The notes beneath the pieces were generated by a model. It was not told the DNA's origin and searched no databases. It worked only from the letters and a program-made list of their open reading frames with translations. This document shows, piece after piece, positions 2 through 33,892 of a stretch of 64,000 nucleotides of DNA (position 1 is the first letter of the stretch; every line of letters begins with the position of its first letter). Both the position numbers and the translations under genes were made by a program. The stretch is from Bacteroidetes bacterium RIFCSPLOWO2_12_FULL_35_15. Lineage in GTDB: Bacteria > Bacteroidota > Bacteroidia > 2-12-FULL-35-15. The stretch lies in NCBI GenBank assembly GCA_001769385.1, contig MEPB01000049.1:124001-188000 (forward strand). The letters are read 5' to 3'.

Positions 2-961
2 AATTTAGAAACAGGTTTTTGGCTGGAAAGTGACCGGATGCTGAGTTTGGCATTTTCTGAAAAAAGTTTGGAAGTTCAACGAAATGTGGTAATTGAAGAA
101 TTCAAGCAACGATACTTAAATCAACCTTATGGAGATGTATGGTTGCTATTGCGACCTATGGCTTTTAAGGTTCATCCATACCAATGGGACACCATTGGCA
201 AAGAGATCTCACACATCGAAAATGCAAAAATGGATGATGTTAAAAATTTCTTTAAGAAGTTTTATTGTCCGAATAATGCAATTATGGTTGTTGCCGGAAA
301 TGTGGAAGCAGAGGAAGTAAAAAAACTTTCAGAAAAGTGGTTTGCACCTATTCCGAAAGGACCCGACAATAAAAGAAATTTACCTCAGGAACCGGCACAA
401 ACAGAAGCCAGAATTTTATCCGTTGATCGAGATGTACCCGTGGATGCTATCTACAAGGCATATCACATGTGCTCCAGGTATGATAAAGAATATTATTCAG
501 TGGATCTGATCTCCGACATTCTTTCCCGTGGTAATTCATCCCGATTATATAATGCCTTGATAAAAGAGAAAAAAATATTCAGTGACCTGAATGCATACGT
601 GATGGGAGAATTTGATAAGGGATTGTTTGTTATTTCAGGAAAATTAAGCAAAGGTGTGAGCATGGAGGAGGCCGACAAAGCGATTGATATAGAGTTACAA
701 AAGATAAAAACGGATTTTGTAACTGTTGATGAATTAACCAAAGTGAAAAATAAAATTGAAGCTTCACATGTTTTTGGAGAAGTGGAAGTATTAAATAAGG
801 CAACAAATCTGGCAGTAGCAGAATTATTAGGAGATGCAGAGATCGTAAATCAGGAAGTGGAAAAATATCTTGCAGTAACTGCAGAACAAATAAAAGAACA
901 AGCAAACAGTATTTTTAGAAAAGAAAATTGTTCAACCTTGTATTATAATACAAAAAAATAA
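2..961 (+). CDS. M16 family zinc peptidase (insulinase-like), 5' end missing
   Basis: The reading frame is open from the window edge (codons NLETGFWLESDRM before the first internal ATG at 38), so the N-terminus lies upstream. The visible part matches the M16 fold: the EVQRNVVIEEFKQR segment supplies the Glu that is the third zinc ligand in this family, then comes the YPNNAIMVVAGNV-like strand (here CPNNAIMVVAGNV) and the second M16 domain from about residue 125 of the visible part. The HxxEH motif would be upstream and cannot be checked. The next gene is a second M16 protein without HxxEH; in Bacteroidetes such neighbours usually form a catalytic/non-catalytic pair in the envelope. Confident on family, not on substrate. 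Confidence 0.9.
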   Translation, partial: NLETGFWLESDRMLSLAFSEKSLEVQRNVVIEEFKQRYLNQPYGDVWLLLRPMAFKVHPYQWDTIGKEISHIENAKMDDVKNFFKKFYCPNNAIMVVAGNVEAEEVKKLSEKWFAPIPKGPDNKRNLPQEPAQTEARILSVDRDVPVDAIYKAYHMCSRYDKEYYSVDLISDILSRGNSSRLYNALIKEKKIFSDLNAYVMGEFDKGLFVISGKLSKGVSMEEADKAIDIELQKIKTDFVTVDELTKVKNKIEASHVFGEVEVLNKATNLAVAELLGDAEIVNQEVEKYLAVTAEQIKEQANSIFRKENCSTLYYNTKK

Positions 962-1061: not shown

Positions 1062-2348
1062 ATGCAAATCCTTGATAGAAAAAATTCACCCGCATTTAAA
1101 ACGGTAGAAAAAATTGAAATGATTCGTGCAAGTGAAAAACCGTTGAATAATAAAATACCTGTTTATTCTATAAACGCAGGCACTCAGGAACTAATAAAAA
1201 TTGAATTTTTGTTTTCTGCGGGTATGTATCAACAGAAAATGCCTTTGCAAGCTGCAACTGTAAATGCTATGCTGGAAGAAGGAACATCAAAAATGACTGC
1301 TGCTCAAATTGCTGATGCGGTGGATTATTATGGTGCTTTTTTAGAAGTAGGTGTTTCTCAGGATAGCGCATCTGTAGTGCTCTATACACTTAACAAACAT
1401 TTAAAAGCAACATTACCTGTGGTGGAAGATGTTATTAAAAATGCTGTTTTTCCTCAAAACGAATTAGAAACACATCTTAGGAATAAGAAACAAAAATTCC
1501 ATGTTAATAATCAAAAAGTTGCCAATGTAGCCCGTAAACGTTTTGCAGAACTGATTTTTGGAGAAAAGCATCCCTATGGAATAAATGTTAAAGAAGAAAA
1601 TTTTGATGCAATTAATCGTTCCAATCTGACTGATTTTTATAAAACATTTTATCGTGCCAATAGCTGCAAAATTATTTTAGCGGGAAAAGTGAATGAGGAT
1701 GTACATACATTATTAAATGAACATTTTGGAGGAAACGACTGGTTGGCAGAAAATGATCTGAAGCAGCCGGATTTCAATATTTCATCTGCAAAAGAACGAG
1801 AACAATTAATTTATAAAGAAGATGCACTTCAATCAGCTATACGTATCGGTAAGGTAATGTTTAATAAAACGCATCCTTATTTTCAAGCATTACAAATATT
1901 AAATACTGTTTTCGGAGGTTATTTTGGTTCTCGTTTAATGTAAAATATCCGTGAAGACAAAGGTTATACGTATGGTATAGGATCAGGGATCGCTTCGTTG
2001 CAAAATTCAGGTTACTTTTTTATTTCAACAGAGGTTGGTTCAGAGGTATGTAAAAATGCCCTTGATGAAATATATTTTGAAATGAACCGTTTACAGAAGG
2101 AGCTAATTACGGAAGATGAATTAAAATTGGTAAAAAATTATTTATTAGGAACCTTCCTGCGTAGTGTTGATGGTCCATTTGCAATGGCCGACCGTTTTAA
2201 AGGTATTATGGAGTATAATTTAGGATATGATTATTTCGACAGATACATTGCAACTATTCGAAACGTTTCTGCATCTGAATTACAAAGTTTAGCTATCAAG
2301 TATTTTGATAAAGATAGTATGATCGAATTGGTGGTTGGAAAAAAATAG
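1062..2348 (+). pseudogene. M16 peptidase-like non-catalytic partner, interrupted by an in-frame TAA
   Basis: One frame runs from ATG 1062 to TAG 2348 (428 codons) broken only by TAA at 1941-1943. Upstream part: M16 N-terminal domain in which the HxxEH position reads NAMLEEGTS, so zinc ligands are absent. Downstream part resumes with NIREDKGYTYGIGSG, which holds the conserved Arg/Tyr pair of M16 proteins. Related proteins read LMxNIREDKGYTYG across the gap, so the TAA stands in place of one residue, most simply Lys (AAA to TAA). No frameshift is present and both halves look otherwise well preserved, so the change is recent, or it is a sequencing error or a recoded stop. A truncated product would lack the Arg/Tyr half and most of the second domain. 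Confidence 0.85.
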
Positions 2349-2402
2349 TGTCGAAAATTATTAATTAGAAATCATCCCCTTAAAATTTGTTTATTGTTGT
2401 TG

Positions 2403-4439
2403 ATGTTTAAAAGAATTATTTTATTTATTGTTTTTTTTGCATTGCAACATGCTTTTGCAAATGCCAGCGTATTATCTCCCCAAATGCGTTGTGTTAATGT
2501 TTTGCAAAATGGAGATGTTGTATTAACCTGGTCAACTCCAGCTGATCCGGGTAATGAGTTTAACCGGTACTTAATTTATACTGCACCTGCTTTATCCGGC
2601 CCATATTCTTTACTACCTCCCGTTAGCGTTTATTTACAAACCAGCTATACCCATTTTGGTGCCAATGCAAGCGGAGCTCCTGTTTATTATTATATACAAA
2701 CACAATTTACTTCAGGTTCTTTAATTGTTGCTCCATCATTGGATACTGTTTGCTCCATGCATTTAAATGTAATTAACCCGGGAAATGGTACAGCATTGTT
2801 ATCCTGGAACCCTATAAAAACACCTGATATTTCATCTTCCACAGGGGTCTATATAATTTATCAAAATTATCCATCAACTGTTTGGACCGCCATTGCAACA
2901 ACCACTAACTTAAATTATATCGATTCTATTTTAATTTGTAATGCAACAATAAAATATCGAATTGAAATTACGGATACAACAGGATGTACATCTGTTTCAT
3001 CTGCCACCGGAGGTATATTTCAAAATAGTATTGTTCCGGCTGTTCCTGTCATTGATACCTTAAGTGTTGATGATACTAATTATGCACTAATGAATTGGAG
3101 TGCAAATTCATCAAGGGATGTTACGGCTTATGTGATTTATAAATTCAATGGCTCTGCCTGGATCCCAATAGATACTGTTTATGGAATAAATAATACAGAT
3201 TATAATTATTTACTATCCAATGCATATTTAGGTTCTGAGGAATTTCGTTTGGCTGCTTATGATTCTTGTGGAAATATCAGTCCAATGGGAGCTGTATTTA
3301 ATACCATGTTTTTGAGTTCAGCAGCAAGTATTTGCGATAGAAGTGTTACTCTTAACTGGACAAGTTCAAATCCTATTGGAACCGGTTTAGCAGGTTATCG
3401 AATTTACCAATCAACCATCGGCATTACAGGGCCATATGCATTAATGGGTTCAGTTTCTCCCGGAGTATTAACCTATACGGTTTCCCCTTTAAACCCTAAT
3501 ACCACTTATTATTATAAAATTCAGGCTTTTGATAGTTCAGGAACAAAAACAGCCTCTTCGAACAGGATCCTCTTTTATTCTGCAACGCCAATCCCTCCGC
3601 AGTTTTCCTATCTTCGCAAAGCAAGTGTTGTTGCGCCAAATAAAATAGATGTTACCTGCCACATTGATGTGGCCGCTTCTGTGTTGGGGTATAAACTATA
3701 CAGATCGACTGATACTGTTTCCGCAAATTATATTTATTTAGGAACAATTCCTTCAAGTATTACAACACCAATTGTTTTCCGCGATAATAAAGTATTGACC
3801 GATAAGAATAGTTATTATTATAAGATGGTTGTTGTGGATAGTTGTGGTTTTGATGGGTTTGAAACAAATATCGGTCATACGATATTATTAAATGCAATCA
3901 GCAATCCGGATATGACAAATACACTGAACTGGAATGACTATTCAACCTGGTTGGGAAGTGTTTCATCCTACAATATTTATAGGGGAATTGATGGTGCTAT
4001 TGACCCCACACCAATTGATAATGTGGCATTCGGAATCAATACGTATAAGGATGATGTTTCCATGTTTTTACAGGGAGAAGGTGTATTTAATTATTATGTT
4101 GAAGCATTGGAAGGTCCCGGTAATATTTACAATTTCAGTGAAAACAGTTTGTCAAATATTGCGGATGCTTTCCAGGATCCTGAAGTATATATTCCCAATT
4201 CATTTAAACCATCAGGAATAAATAATATGTTTATACCGGTTGCTACCTATGTTAATTTTACCGAATATGAATTTATGGTTTTTAACCGCTGGGGATTAAA
4301 AGTATTTTCTACTACCAATATTGATGAGGGCTGGAATGGCAATAAATGTGAAGGAGGCGTTTATATTTATATTGTCCGTTATAAGTCCTCAAAAGGAGAA
4401 TATATAGAGCGTAAAGGTTCTGTGACTCTTTTAAGGTAG
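2403..4439 (+). CDS. Fibronectin type III-like secreted protein with T9SS type B sorting domain
   Basis: Signal peptide MFKRIILFIVFFALQHAFA, then a chain of fibronectin type III-like beta-sandwich repeats over residues 25-590 (recurring LxW...YxIY and YYYKI/YYYYI strands). The C-terminal ~85 residues (YIPNSFKPSGINNMF..., EFMVFNRWGLKVF, GWNGNKCEGGVYIYIVRY, KGSVTLLR) are a classic gliding-type (type B) T9SS C-terminal domain, so the protein should cross the outer membrane and be displayed or released. TTG codons at 2394-2402 precede ATG 2403; the ATG gives the best signal peptide and is chosen. It follows the M16 genes by about 50 bp and may share their transcript. Ligand unknown. Confidence 0.85.
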   Translation: MFKRIILFIVFFALQHAFANASVLSPQMRCVNVLQNGDVVLTWSTPADPGNEFNRYLIYTAPALSGPYSLLPPVSVYLQTSYTHFGANASGAPVYYYIQTQFTSGSLIVAPSLDTVCSMHLNVINPGNGTALLSWNPIKTPDISSSTGVYIIYQNYPSTVWTAIATTTNLNYIDSILICNATIKYRIEITDTTGCTSVSSATGGIFQNSIVPAVPVIDTLSVDDTNYALMNWSANSSRDVTAYVIYKFNGSAWIPIDTVYGINNTDYNYLLSNAYLGSEEFRLAAYDSCGNISPMGAVFNTMFLSSAASICDRSVTLNWTSSNPIGTGLAGYRIYQSTIGITGPYALMGSVSPGVLTYTVSPLNPNTTYYYKIQAFDSSGTKTASSNRILFYSATPIPPQFSYLRKASVVAPNKIDVTCHIDVAASVLGYKLYRSTDTVSANYIYLGTIPSSITTPIVFRDNKVLTDKNSYYYKMVVVDSCGFDGFETNIGHTILLNAISNPDMTNTLNWNDYSTWLGSVSSYNIYRGIDGAIDPTPIDNVAFGINTYKDDVSMFLQGEGVFNYYVEALEGPGNIYNFSENSLSNIADAFQDPEVYIPNSFKPSGINNMFIPVATYVNFTEYEFMVFNRWGLKVFSTTNIDEGWNGNKCEGGVYIYIVRYKSSKGEYIERKGSVTLLR

Positions 4440-8161: not shown

Positions 8162-11100
8162 ATGAGAAACTTTTATTCATTTCTTAAACTTTTAATTTTA
8201 GTAGGTTGCGGAAGCTTTTATTCCAGTTCAGCATCTGCTCAGGAATGTAATATTATTTATATCACTCCCACCGGCGCATCAAGTGGAGTGGCTGGTACCA
8301 TTGCAAATCCTGCTAGCTTAACATACGGACTTACATTAGTAAGTGCAACCGATAATCAATTATGGCTTGCAACAGGTACTTATCCAATTTCGAATACATT
8401 GCTTATTCCCGGTGATGTTACGATAGAAGGTGGTTTTAATTCAGCAACATGGACAAAAAGTAATGTTTCACAAAGTATTATTGATAAAGATGCTACCAAT
8501 GTTTTGCCATCTCCTTTTGATGCATTGATCGGATTAGGTGGTACTTCTGTTTCTAATTTCAGATTACAGGATATTACTGTTAATGTGGCTAATGCTCCCG
8601 GAAACGGAATTTCTGTTTATGGAATTTATTTATCGGCATGTTCAAATTATAATATTACTCGCTGTACTGTAACCACTGGAGCCGGATCGTCAGGTATTGC
8701 AGGAACATCAGGTATTGCCGGAACACCTGGCGGAAACGGTGCTGCAGGTGTGGCAGGAGGGCCGGAAGGTCTTTCTTATCCCGGAGGTGCAGGAGGCACT
8801 GGAGGAAATACAGGAGGAGATGGGGCTACTGTACTTAGTTATGATAATTGTGCTGCAGGAATTATTGGTGGGGGAGCATGTGGTGGTGCCGGTGGCAGTG
8901 GTGGAACGGGCCCATCGTGTAGTTTAGGTTGTGCATTCGGAAATCCCGGTTGCAGCGGCACTACACCTGGACAGCCCGGTCAGCCGGGAGGAAACGGAAC
9001 AGCAGGAACTAATGGAACACTTGGAGCAGCAGGAAGTATTGCAGGAGGATATTTTGTTCCCGGAGGTATAGGAGGAAATGGAGGAAGCGGAACTGATGGA
9101 TGTGGTGCTGGTGGTGGTGGTGCAGGAGGAGGTCAGCAGGAAAGCGGTACAGATGATTGGGGCGGTTCTGGCGGTGGTGGCGGTGGCGGAGGCTTTTCAG
9201 GTACAGGTGGCACAGGTGGTTCCGGAGGTGGTGGATCATTCGCAGTATTTCTTACTAATAATGGTGCCGGAGGAATTATTCAAGATTGTTTACTTAACCC
9301 GGGATCAGGTGGTGCAGGTGGTAGTGGTGGGGCTGGAAGTGCCGGTGGAGCCGGAGGTTCAGGTGGAGCTGGTGGTGCAGGTGGTGTTTGTTCTGCCGGA
9401 AATGGTGGTGCAGGCGGAACCGGAGGAACCGGTGGTGCCGGTGGAAGCGGTGGAAATGGTGCCACAGGCTTGAGTATGGCTTTGAGTGAAAATGGAGGTA
9501 CTTCAATATCTAATTTAGGAATTATTTCTGTTCCCGGGAACCCTCCGGATATTACAGATGCTAATAAAGGATGCACCAACTCAGAAGTGGTGTTTACATC
9601 AACCTCCGGTGGAACCTGGGATTTTGGAGCAGGGGCCACGCCATTAACAGCAACCGGTACGGGACCATTTTCTGTTTATTATTCAAGTTTAGGAAGAAAA
9701 ACAATTGTGCATGGTGGCACAAGTTTTACAGATTTTGTTAATATTTTTCAAGCAGGGCCAACCATTCCGAGTATCAGTCCTTCTAATGGATCAGTTACTT
9801 TGGGCTGCCCGAATACATATACTACTTCACTGACAGGCACTTATTATGAATGGATATTTGGAAGTGCTGCAAGTCCGGATACAGTGCAAGGCGCAACAAT
9901 GCAAACAGCTACCGACATTTATTTCTTCGCTCCGGGAACATACATCATCCATTTATATGTAACTACAGTTTGTTGCGGCAGAGTGCATGATTCCACTTCT
10001 GTTACAGTAAACCCAAGCACTTTTAATGTCACATTGGCTTCTTCGCCTTCGCCCATTTGTCAAGGGGATACAATTACTTTTACTGCAAGTCCTAATACAT
10101 ATTCGGGATACCAGTTTTTTGTTAATAATATTCCTGTCCAATCAGGAGCAAGTCCTACCTACACCACAAACACGATACAAACAGGGGATAGTGTGATTGT
10201 TATTGCATTGTCAACCTGCTTTACTAATCCAAGTGCTACTATTTATCCTGTCGTAAATCCTATACCTGTAGTATCACTCAGTAGTTCGGCAGCTCCAAGT
10301 AATACTATTTGTGAGGGAGCAAGTATTACTTTTACTGCATCACCGGCAGGATATACGAATTATGAATTTTTTAATGGTGCAACTTCTATTCAAAATGGCG
10401 CTGGAAACACATTTACAACCACAACTTTAGCCTCCGGCAATAGTCTCACAGTGATTGCAACCGACAATGGATGTCCGGGTTTATCAGGCAACGCTATTGT
10501 AACCACCGTTGATTCACTTCCTGTTGTTATTTTGACAAGTTCTGATGCAAATAATCAGATATGTACAGGAGATAACGTTACGTTTACCGCTACTGCTGCA
10601 GGATATGCGAATTATGAATTTTTTGATGGCCCCACTTCTTTGCAAAGCGGAGCAAGTAATACTTACTCAACTACCTCTTTGGTAAATGGAAATAGTATAA
10701 CTGTTGTTGCAACAAGTTCAGGTGGTTGTGTTGGTTTGCCAAGCAATGCTATTGTTACAGGAGTTAATCCTATACCAACAGCAACTCTTTCCAGTTCAGA
10801 CAGTAATGATACTATTTGTCAAAACGAGAGTATAACTTTTACTTCCACTCCAAGTGGATATTCGACCTATGCTTTTTATAATGGGGCTACACTTTTACAA
10901 ACAGGAAGCAGTACTACTTATACAACAAACGCTTTAGCTGCAGGTAATAGTATTACTGTAATTGCAAGTAATGCAGGGTGTTCTAGCCCGGCAAGCAATG
11001 CAATAACAATTTCTATTATTCCTGCACCTGTTGTAAATGCAGGAGCAGATTTTCAGGTCTGTATTGATGCGGGGGTAATTACACTTTCCGGTTATACTCC

Positions 11101-11986
11101 TTCGGGGGGGACATGGACAGGTAATGGAATAACCAACCCATCTGGTGTTTTTAACCCGACATCAGCAGGAGTTGGCAGTCATCAGCTTTTATATGCAGTT
11201 ACTAATTCCAACAATTGTACAGGTTATGATACACTTATTGCAACAGTTGATCCAATGCCGGTAGTTGCGGTAAATTCAGCTTCAATTTGTCCGGGAGAAT
11301 CTGCAACCTTAACTGCCAGTGGCGCAAATACGTATGAATGGTCTCCTTCAACAGGGTTGAGCAGTACAACAGGGTCAAGTGTTACAGCCAACCCTTCTGT
11401 TACAACTACATACACAATAATCGGGACTTCCACTGCAGGTTGCAAGGATACCACAAATGCGGTTGTTACTGTTAATTCAATAGAACTTGTAACCATAACC
11501 GGAAACACAGCCATTAATGCTTGTGAAACAACTGAATTAACAGCAGTTCCAACCGATGGAACGTATTCCTGGGGACCCAATGTAAATTTATCAAGCACCT
11601 CGGGAGCAACAGTAACAGTAGCACCTACAAGCACTCAACAATACTGGGTTACTTATACAAGTCCGGATGGTTGTGTTGATTCGGATACTGTAACGGTTGT
11701 TGTAACTGATATTAATACCTATTTTTTACCTACTGCATTAACACCAAATGGTGATGGAATAAATGATGAAATTCATCTGCATGGAAGAGGTATAGAATCC
11801 TTTACACTTAAAATATTTGATAGAATAGGAGAGCAGGTATTTCAAACAACAAGCATGGAAAAAGGTTGGAATGGAAGATTGTTGGGGGTTCCAATGAATG
11901 ATGGAGTGTTTGTTTATATTCTCCATATTACATTCTGTAATGGTGAAAAAGTAAAAAAACAGGGAGATATAACACTTGTAAAATAA
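8162..11986 (+). CDS. Giant secreted protein: beta-helix, Gly-rich PGRS-like region, Ig-like repeats, T9SS type B sorting domain
   Basis: 1274 residues. Signal peptide 1-26 (ends SSASAQ). Residues ~27-175 are a right-handed beta-helix start (YITPTGASSG, GDVTIEGGFN, NYNITRCTVTT). Residues ~175-435 are extremely Gly/Ala-rich (GGAGGSGGAGSAGG and similar), with scattered Cys. Residues ~470-615 contain a PKD/Ig-like segment. Four ~85-residue Ig-like repeats follow at about 620, 700, 785 and 870, each with an ICxGxxITFTAxPxGYxxYxFF core, then SPxG/‘TYEWSPSTGLSS’-type domains. The last ~85 residues (YFLPTALTPNGDGINDE..., GWNGRLLG, VKKQGDITLVK) are a type B T9SS sorting domain. Likely a cell-surface adhesin-like filament; it is paired with the PorP/SprF gene 20 bp downstream. 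Confidence 0.88.
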   Translation: MRNFYSFLKLLILVGCGSFYSSSASAQECNIIYITPTGASSGVAGTIANPASLTYGLTLVSATDNQLWLATGTYPISNTLLIPGDVTIEGGFNSATWTKSNVSQSIIDKDATNVLPSPFDALIGLGGTSVSNFRLQDITVNVANAPGNGISVYGIYLSACSNYNITRCTVTTGAGSSGIAGTSGIAGTPGGNGAAGVAGGPEGLSYPGGAGGTGGNTGGDGATVLSYDNCAAGIIGGGACGGAGGSGGTGPSCSLGCAFGNPGCSGTTPGQPGQPGGNGTAGTNGTLGAAGSIAGGYFVPGGIGGNGGSGTDGCGAGGGGAGGGQQESGTDDWGGSGGGGGGGGFSGTGGTGGSGGGGSFAVFLTNNGAGGIIQDCLLNPGSGGAGGSGGAGSAGGAGGSGGAGGAGGVCSAGNGGAGGTGGTGGAGGSGGNGATGLSMALSENGGTSISNLGIISVPGNPPDITDANKGCTNSEVVFTSTSGGTWDFGAGATPLTATGTGPFSVYYSSLGRKTIVHGGTSFTDFVNIFQAGPTIPSISPSNGSVTLGCPNTYTTSLTGTYYEWIFGSAASPDTVQGATMQTATDIYFFAPGTYIIHLYVTTVCCGRVHDSTSVTVNPSTFNVTLASSPSPICQGDTITFTASPNTYSGYQFFVNNIPVQSGASPTYTTNTIQTGDSVIVIALSTCFTNPSATIYPVVNPIPVVSLSSSAAPSNTICEGASITFTASPAGYTNYEFFNGATSIQNGAGNTFTTTTLASGNSLTVIATDNGCPGLSGNAIVTTVDSLPVVILTSSDANNQICTGDNVTFTATAAGYANYEFFDGPTSLQSGASNTYSTTSLVNGNSITVVATSSGGCVGLPSNAIVTGVNPIPTATLSSSDSNDTICQNESITFTSTPSGYSTYAFYNGATLLQTGSSTTYTTNALAAGNSITVIASNAGCSSPASNAITISIIPAPVVNAGADFQVCIDAGVITLSGYTPSGGTWTGNGITNPSGVFNPTSAGVGSHQLLYAVTNSNNCTGYDTLIATVDPMPVVAVNSASICPGESATLTASGANTYEWSPSTGLSSTTGSSVTANPSVTTTYTIIGTSTAGCKDTTNAVVTVNSIELVTITGNTAINACETTELTAVPTDGTYSWGPNVNLSSTSGATVTVAPTSTQQYWVTYTSPDGCVDSDTVTVVVTDINTYFLPTALTPNGDGINDEIHLHGRGIESFTLKIFDRIGEQVFQTTSMEKGWNGRLLGVPMNDGVFVYILHITFCNGEKVKKQGDITLVK
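8660..9475 (+). repeat. GC-rich DNA encoding low-complexity Gly-rich region
   Basis: About 0.8 kb of GGT/GGA/GCA-rich sequence inside the cargo gene, clearly higher in GC than its AT-rich surroundings. It encodes GGx-type runs. The bias opens long reading frames on other frames and the other strand (for example 9078-9473 plus and 9280-9639 minus); these are composition shadows, not genes. Confidence 0.8.
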
Positions 11987-31361: not shown

Positions 31362-32138
31362 ATGTACGGAATCTGTAATTTAAGTATTGTACCCTGCCGG
31401 AAGGAACCATTCGACAGAAGCGAAATGACCACCCAGCTTTTGTTTGGTGATTATTTTCGTGTGCTTGAAATACAAGGTAATTGGTGTCATATAAAAATTG
31501 CATATGATAATTACGAATGCTGGATAGATAAAAAACAATTCTTACCAATTGCTTATCATACCTATGATATTTTAAATTCGACTGAAACATTTTGTTCAAA
31601 CGAATTGATCCAGATCATTACGGATACTAAAACAAATACTCTTTTCCCGATTGTTATAGGTAGTACACTTCCCAATTTTGATAATGGCGAATGTGCCGTT
31701 GAAAATTCAATGTATTCCTATGATGGTGCTTTTATAAATGGGGAATTACCTTTTACAAAAGTCGGGATCATTGAAACGGCCATGATGTATCTTAACTCAC
31801 CTTATTTATGGGGAGGTAAAACTCCTTTTGGAATCGATTGCAGTGGTTTTACACAAATGGTTTTTAAACTTAACGGAATAAAAATTAAGCGTGATGCATA
31901 TCAGCAAGCCGAACAAGGAGAAACATTAAGTTTTGTGGAAGAATCAGAAGCCGGGGATCTTGCTTTTTTTGATAATGAAGAAGGTAAGATTGTGCATGTA
32001 GGGATTGTATTGGATAATAATAAAATTATTCATGCCTCAGGTAAAGTACGTATTGATGGCTTTGATCATCAGGGCATTTTTAATAACGACAAAAAAGATT
32101 ATTCTCACCGGTTGAGATTGCTGAAGAGGATTGTTTAG
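31362..32138 (+). CDS. SH3-domain NlpC/P60 (C40) cell-wall endopeptidase
   Basis: 258 residues without an obvious signal peptide. Residues 1-60 are an SH3-like domain (GICNLSIVPCRKEP, QLLFGDYFRVLEIQGNW); residues ~130-258 are the C40 domain with nucleophile C160 in PFGIDCSGFTQM, then GDLAFFDNEEGKIVHVGIVL (catalytic His) and NKIIHASG (third residue). This is the common Bacteroidetes form of gamma-D-glutamyl-diamino acid peptidase, acting on peptidoglycan peptides. Lack of a signal peptide suggests cytoplasmic recycling of muropeptides. It overlaps the convergent SanA-like gene by 4 bp. Confidence 0.9.
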   Translation: MYGICNLSIVPCRKEPFDRSEMTTQLLFGDYFRVLEIQGNWCHIKIAYDNYECWIDKKQFLPIAYHTYDILNSTETFCSNELIQIITDTKTNTLFPIVIGSTLPNFDNGECAVENSMYSYDGAFINGELPFTKVGIIETAMMYLNSPYLWGGKTPFGIDCSGFTQMVFKLNGIKIKRDAYQQAEQGETLSFVEESEAGDLAFFDNEEGKIVHVGIVLDNNKIIHASGKVRIDGFDHQGIFNNDKKDYSHRLRLLKRIV

Positions 32139-32800
32139 GATTTTATCTTCACTTCTGCCCCCAAAAAATGTGGCTGTTTGTGTAATACATATAAATCCAA
32201 TACCGCTTTGAATTTGGCGAAGTATTCACGGATCCGGACTTTCAAAGAAAATGAATCAGGAACATCTTTCGCATTAAATGCAACTACATTCATATCATAA
32301 TAATTGCCAATAAAAACAGCACGTTGATTATGAAATGCCTGTGAAATAACGGTTACATCTTTTTGTCCGAAAACCTTTAACCCTCTTACCATCGAATCTA
32401 ATGTCCTGAATCCTGCATAATCCAACGTAATACAAGAGTCGGGAACACCTTGTTCGATCAAAGCATCACGCATATCTGTTGCTTCATCATATTCTTTTTT
32501 GTGATTATCACCACTAACAATAATGTGTTTTATTTTTCCTGTTTTATACAATGCTGCAGCTGCTTGAATACGGTATTTGAAAAATAAATTTTCATGTCCA
32601 TTACGTAATGTTTTGCTAGCGCCTAATAAAATAGCAACATCGTTTTTAGGAATTAAATTTACATCCGTATAGAGTTGCTTTTTTGTGCTTTTTATGATCC
32701 AGTAATTACTTAAAAAAACAGAAATACTAATTAGAAAGAGCAGGAGGGAAGACCACTTTAGGATTTGTTTGAAAGAAATATTTTTTATTTTATTGATCAT
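32135..32800 (-). CDS. SanA/YdcF/ElyC family (DUF218) membrane-anchored protein
   Basis: 221 residues. One N-terminal membrane helix (SSLLLFLISISVFLSNYWII), then the DUF218 fold: VAILLGASKTLRNGHENLFFKYRIQAAAALY, HIIVSGDNHKKEYDEATDMRDALIEQGVP and ITLDYAGFRTLDSMVR. SanA is linked to vancomycin resistance and envelope barrier function in enteric bacteria; the biochemical reaction is unknown. The gene sits 18 bp downstream of an outer-membrane protein on the same strand. Confidence 0.85.
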   Translation of the reverse strand: MINKIKNISFKQILKWSSLLLFLISISVFLSNYWIIKSTKKQLYTDVNLIPKNDVAILLGASKTLRNGHENLFFKYRIQAAAALYKTGKIKHIIVSGDNHKKEYDEATDMRDALIEQGVPDSCITLDYAGFRTLDSMVRGLKVFGQKDVTVISQAFHNQRAVFIGNYYDMNVVAFNAKDVPDSFSLKVRIREYFAKFKAVLDLYVLHKQPHFLGAEVKIKS

Positions 32801-32818
32801 CTTTTTATTTCGGCCGGG

Positions 32819-33781
32819 TTATTTTAATATTTTATAAAGTGCAAAAGATAAACCGACATTGATATAAGTTCCGCTCCAATTAACAATCACCTGGTCATCG
32901 TTGGCAATCGGGTTCACATTAAATGAAGCATAACCTGTTTTGCTTGTCGTACTTTTGTGGAATTCTTTCACTTTCATAAATCTTTGACCAACACGCAGAC
33001 TTGCTATAATTCTTTTTGAAATTATCCAATCGAGTCCGGTTGCCAGGTGTGCAGTTATTTTACTTGTTCCTGACACTTTGTAACTTGTGTCATATATTTT
33101 GATAAATCCTCCCATATTCCCCATTTCTATTCCTGGGTCAAACATGAGCAATAAGTTTTTCTTGTGGTTTAGGGTATGGCCATAAAAAAACATGATATTC
33201 ATATAGAACATTTTTAATTTTATTTCGTTGGCGCCATAGTAATAATTGGAAACATGAATAGCATCCGATGGTGTAAATAAAAGCTGTAGCGCTCCTCCGA
33301 ACCAGTTTCGTTTGTTGCCATCCAATGCAGTTCCGAATCCCAGGTTGAAGGCATAACTACTTTTGTTCCCGGCCATTTCGAGGCGATTATCATTATTCCA
33401 AAATCTCCAGAAAAGTTTAAGGTTATCATCTTCATTTCTATTGCCATAATTTCCACTCACACCAAAAGTAAATCTCATTGAGGAAACTGAACCAGCAGCT
33501 TTTAATGATTCTTTTTCCTGCTTTTTAATGCTTTCGGGATCATATTTCGAGTAATCAATTACGGCTCCGTTCGTATAGTGTATAGATGCTATATCCGTAA
33601 TAAAAACAGAGTAAATGGCAACTGATTCAGGAGGAGTTGTTTTTTTATATTTTAATTCAACTTCTCCTTTTTCAATAATTTCAACAGGAATTGTTGTGCC
33701 ATTTTTCATAAAAAGCGTATCCTGTGCAAGAAGATTAGTTGAGAAAAATAAAAGCGAAAAACAGAAAAATAGTGCTTTCAT
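32819..33781 (-). CDS. Predicted outer-membrane beta-barrel protein
   Basis: 320 residues from ATG 33781 (an upstream ATG at 33802 would put seven residues before the signal peptide). Signal MKALFFCFSLLFFSTNLLAQ, then a small beta domain (DTLFMKNGTTIPVEIIEKGEVELKYKK) of a kind often found before Bacteroidetes barrels, and about ten amphipathic strands ending GTYINVGLSFALYKILK. No known family recognised. The N-terminal domain may face the periplasm. Confidence 0.7.
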   Translation of the reverse strand: MKALFFCFSLLFFSTNLLAQDTLFMKNGTTIPVEIIEKGEVELKYKKTTPPESVAIYSVFITDIASIHYTNGAVIDYSKYDPESIKKQEKESLKAAGSVSSMRFTFGVSGNYGNRNEDDNLKLFWRFWNNDNRLEMAGNKSSYAFNLGFGTALDGNKRNWFGGALQLLFTPSDAIHVSNYYYGANEIKLKMFYMNIMFFYGHTLNHKKNLLLMFDPGIEMGNMGGFIKIYDTSYKVSGTSKITAHLATGLDWIISKRIIASLRVGQRFMKVKEFHKSTTSKTGYASFNVNPIANDDQVIVNWSGTYINVGLSFALYKILK

Positions 33782-33892
33782 AATTAATAATTTTTGAAAC
33801 AAAAACTCAGCATTAAAATTAATAATAATACCTGTTCTATTAATGGGAATTATGAATTACTTTTATACTATTAAATCAAATGCTTTTGTATT

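Follow-up and report, generated by a model that had tools for sequence, protein, structure and literature searches.

Two M16B heterodimers are the closest described systems to the locus studied here. In the heterodimeric zinc peptidase of Sphingomonas sp. A1 (SPH2681/SPH2682; PDB 3amj), the HXXEH motif is borne by the other subunit, not by the partner (PMC12731061). In Thermus thermophilus, the genes of the two subunits, TTHA1264 and TTHA1265, adjoin and the heterodimer is active, while the catalytic subunit by itself (TTHA1264) is monomeric and inactive (PMC12731061). The role in M16B peptidases of a pair formed by an arginine and a tyrosine (the R/Y pair) is treated in the same paper. Concerning M16 peptidases in Bacteroidetes, no on-point literature appeared in the titles and abstract openings of the matches listed.

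In the window (the whole 64-kb stretch of DNA analysed here), a gene for an M16B catalytic subunit, of which positions 2 to 961 (+ strand) lie inside, precedes a gene for a non-catalytic partner at positions 1062 to 2348 of the same strand. From their sequences, these two genes would encode an M16B heterodimer. The whole catalytic gene can be read in the contig (G000:C49:123723-124961); it encodes 412 aa with an HLFEH motif and has no internal stop. For the partner, the protein obtained by reading through the stop described below has 3amj_B ('zinc peptidase inactive subunit') as its best solved match (residues 34-428, E = 5e-27). No HXXEH zinc motif was found in partner residues 45-75, nor was any seen when reading the whole frame. 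The Peptidase_M16_C domain was detected in both pieces of the gene above its cut-off of 23 (57.3 bits for the 5' piece and 36.2 bits for the 3' piece). The N-terminal Peptidase_M16 domain, with 21.6 bits, falls slightly short of its cut-off of 22.3; the profile search of the genome gave 22.1 bits, or 22.6 bits with the frame neighbours. A single chain of about 430 aa with both domains would be obtained only if the stop is read through. The first-pass annotation had proposed an M16 partner protein next to a catalytic subunit that it saw in part and called intact, and both proposals are supported.

The partner frame starts with the ATG at 1062, ends with the TAG at 2346-2348 and is open except for a TAA at 1941-1943, in frame, which is codon 294 of the 428-codon gene. 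The gene is thus divided into a 5' part of 293 codons plus TAA (1062-1943, + strand) and a 3' part of 134 codons plus TAG (1944-2348, + strand). In a Pfam search, the 5' piece covers positions 2-112 of the Peptidase_M16_C profile, up to residue 292, and the 3' piece covers positions 115-180, from codon 295, so that the gap between them is exactly two positions, with room for codons 293 and 294. Since a single profile is matched in register by both pieces, the match to a split gene is more than chance. The continuity of the frame across the stop is also visible in the alignment with 3amj_B. Furthermore, the stop lies three codons before Arg297 (1950-1952) and ten before Tyr304 (1971-1973), i.e. 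just before the R/Y pair, which now stands 3' of the stop (1950-1973, + strand). In both respects, the splitting of an intact M16 frame by one in-frame stop and its place just before the Arg/Tyr, the first-pass annotation was right. Compared with the Sphingomonas sp. A1 pair, the Arg and Tyr of the partner are in register, but here the gene is cut before them.

We then investigated codon 294 in related genomes. A search of the genus with the read-through protein gave 36 genomes, including its own, all with a match at E <= 1e-20, and a search at the family rank returned the identical 36 genomes. Loci L035-L062, which mainly belong to the same genomes as the genus search, were counted once and L063 (23% identity) was left out. 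Of the 29 named records found, one is a distant beta-proteobacterium; the others, 28 metagenome assemblies, bear the labels Bacteroidetes, Bacteroidota or Bacteroidia and include three Chitinophaga pinensis. Codon 294 is covered in 33 of the 35 relatives, the fragments in G010 and G021 stopping short of it. It encodes a serine in 32 of them (14 TCA, 9 TCG, 6 TCC, 3 TCT) and an alanine in one (GCA), and none of these 33 genus relatives carries a stop there. Within the genus, the stop is, as far as these aligned sequences tell, private to this genome. A single-step change from a serine codon fits the one-base event suggested at first, but the suggested source codon, AAA, is absent from all 33 covering relatives. 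A gene boundary conserved in relatives, which would have spoken against a split gene, was not found either. Because the 33 covering relatives run straight through without a stop, there is no gene boundary here in the genus and no conserved readthrough site.

Two assemblies deserve a remark at this point. In G021, the contig begins inside the partner gene with unlike bases (L120:1-46) holding a TAG at bases 44-46. This candidate for a second broken copy was rejected; as the sequence there is unlike the gene, we judged it to be a contig-edge effect. The assembly of G023 breaks inside the partner gene (L068:3366-3399 and L067): one contig departs from the gene over its final 34 bases and the other continues in the gene, the two sharing at least 26 bases before the divergence, like a branch of the assembly graph.

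Taken as a whole, these data make it probable that the partner gene of an M16B heterodimer has been struck by a nonsense mutation of very recent date, restricted to this genome or to the assembled strain. Pseudogenes arising from a single nonsense substitution are a recognised category in bacteria. The present case would be of the same kind, with one in-frame stop, constrained sequence behind it and intact copies in relatives; the disruption is private to the lineage and the orthologues are intact, with the stop in 0 of the 33 covering relatives. The finding is an ordinary one and raises no new question in kind.

According to this explanation by nonsense mutation, the change would cut the partner at codon 294 and leave the last 134 codons, including the R/Y pair, behind the stop. 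Arg297 and Tyr304, seven residues apart, are invariant in all 34 rows of the alignment (33 relatives and the genome itself). The pair is still encoded here but absent from the 293-aa product, whereas it is present in the 33 aligned relatives. This product would presumably be unable to complete the active site, the intact HLFEH catalytic subunit would be left without a working partner, and the protease would be switched off. The crippling of the heterodimer envisaged by the first-pass annotation is thus a likely loss, judging from the R/Y pair missing in the truncated product. The pair of T. thermophilus, compared here through the literature, is similar in that the subunit genes adjoin and that TTHA1264 alone is inactive (PMC12731061); it differs in that the heterodimer is active there.

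It could be argued that the two pieces act as a split protein, or that the 5' piece alone still serves as the partner, since it still covers the N-terminal domain and roughly 60% of the profile of the C-domain and since start codons exist downstream of the stop. However, when the frame is followed beyond the stop, no ATG, GTG or TTG occurs until the TTG at 1998, on the 3' side of the R/Y pair. Either piece made from ordinary starts would consequently be without the pair, and no covering relative is split at codon 294, which makes such a use of the pieces very unlikely.

The stop might also be read through, by near-cognate misreading or by a programmed signal, so that some full-length partner is made. 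The frame 3' of the stop is intact and conserved, which speaks for this explanation. On the other hand, none of the 33 covering relatives has the stop, and the 100 bases that follow it fold no better than shuffled sequences (z = -0.22). Moreover, the context found here (TAA followed by A) occurs at the end of 15 of 42 ORFs of the window, more often than any other, and no UUA anticodon was detected among the 33 tRNA hits of the genome, one scan having scored 150 of 391 first-look candidates. A tmRNA is present in the genome. In two Pseudomonas species, readthrough reaches at most 0.08% for UGA and 0.01% for UAG, while readthrough of UGA in E. coli is about 12% (PMC9481147). The reporters named in the parts of that paper used here are those of UAG and UGA only, UAA not being among them. 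The first-pass annotation had put readthrough on the same footing as a mutation or an error, but nothing in the relatives, the tRNAs, the RNA fold or the stop context favours it, and we regard it as highly improbable. Equally doubtful is a variant in which the shortened partner is used, or readthrough occurs at a low level, with the catalytic subunit working in an altered complex that lacks the usual R/Y pair, or being throttled. The reassignment of UAA to an amino acid in this organism finds nothing in its favour beyond this single site; as 33 of the 42 checked ORFs of the window end in TAA and the UUA anticodon is absent among the 33 tRNA hits, its probability is negligible.

To estimate the age of the stop, we compared the gene with its counterpart in G023, the nearest relative, which has a serine at codon 294; the partner pieces are 90 and 94% identical between the two genomes and the catalytic subunit 96%. 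Behind the stop, dS is 1.76, dN 0.030 and dN/dS 0.017, with 9.5 nonsynonymous differences over the 134 codons, and before the stop, dN/dS is 0.062 for a piece of 169 codons and 0.050 for one of 136 codons. With G030 as the reference, dN/dS rises slightly, from 0.037 before the stop to 0.048 behind it, at a dS > 2, near saturation. According to these ratios, purifying selection still acts strongly on the codons 3' of the stop, and the stop is therefore either very young, degeneration of the gene having barely started, or an error. Five residues before the stop and two behind it are private to this genome (1 to 24 and 0 to 9, respectively, in the other full rows). With a crude Poisson bound, which is rough given the high dS, neutral drift would occupy < 2 to 12% of this genome's branch after its divergence from G023, the range being set by the dS used and by counting private changes only or all changes.

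Two of the five private changes before the stop fall in columns where all 33 relatives have an Asp: codon 180 (1599-1601, + strand), here Asn, and codon 273 (1878-1880, + strand), here Tyr. The latter change (BLOSUM62 -3) is the lowest-scoring of this type among the 34 partner rows. Such changes at invariant columns number 0 to 5 in the other partner rows, two being thus a common number, and none was found in the catalytic subunit of this genome (30 rows; row cut-off 25). The two changes may reflect early decay, further errors or chance. Set against their absence in the catalytic subunit, they give a hint of relaxed constraint in the partner.

The strong constraint on both sides of an unbroken frame would be expected as well if the stop were an artefact of base calling, assembly or strain collapse, i.e. 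if the gene were intact or if the consensus had taken up a stop allele of a minor strain. The absence of the stop from the 33 covering relatives fits this explanation too, and the odd private change at codon 273, 63 bases upstream, could be a second error; in addition, 28 of the 29 named matching records are metagenome assemblies. The lack of a clear excess of amino-acid changes 3' of the stop counts against the mutation insofar as it fits an artefact equally with a young mutation. Conversely, the assembly holding the window (5,386,317 bases in 110 contigs) is 99.41% complete and the contig is long (221,770 bases). Consensus errors are rare where contigs are well covered.

We also screened the 64-kb window by coding signal for pairs of same-frame ORFs parted by a single stop, each stretch being at least 30 aa long and scoring above 15, a search that is blind to frameshifts. 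Three pairs were obtained. The first is the partner gene, and in the second the tail of the partner gene is linked to the gene that follows, which is a separate one. The third pair (32135-33856, minus strand) looks like two genes from its domain content, as DUF218 is matched by one ORF and the other has no hit in Pfam. A synteny check for split genes was made against most of G030:C7 (bases 140001-141089 excluded) and against G018:C44:60001-160000; close matches are limited to about the first 4.4 kb of the window, and the deeper ones have 22-51% identity. Since there is just one clear split case on a long contig, as seen by this frameshift-blind scan, the balance leans, not strongly, to a real mutation, and an artefact is a possible but rather unlikely explanation. 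If it were nevertheless the correct one, the case would be a reminder to check lone stops in assemblies.

Should the nonsense mutation be real, one M16B heterodimer would have been knocked out naturally, a small event observed at an early stage. This would suggest that the protease can be done without, at least for a short time, when further M16 proteins are retained, as they would be in this genome. Ten PF00675 matches were found in the genome, two each on contigs C16, C35, C37, C44 and C49, those on C49 being the catalytic/partner pair itself. Within its own genome, the partner has a next best match of 29% identity, and none of the matches found is thus a close duplicate. The catalytic subunit is present in 34 of the 36 genomes of the genus at E <= 1e-100. 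Among the 34 genomes with both subunit genes, these are adjoining or close in 17 and on different contigs in 17, a count that includes some fragmented assemblies. In G017, each of the two genes is well inside a long or unrelated stretch, and they are truly apart at least there.

Finally, we looked at the genes that follow the partner in the window. The product of the next gene (2394-4439) is 681 aa long and shows an Fn3 domain together with a type IX secretion signal (CHU_C). Its length is similar in G023 (678 aa), but reaches 1116 aa in G030 and 1133 in G018, where the protein is extended at its N-terminus by some 430-450 aa. As it is common to G023, the short form probably predates the stop. 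Further along, the gene at 8162-11986 codes for 1274 aa; its product combines Ig-like repeats with a stretch rich in glycine and bears a type IX secretion signal of the CHU_C type.
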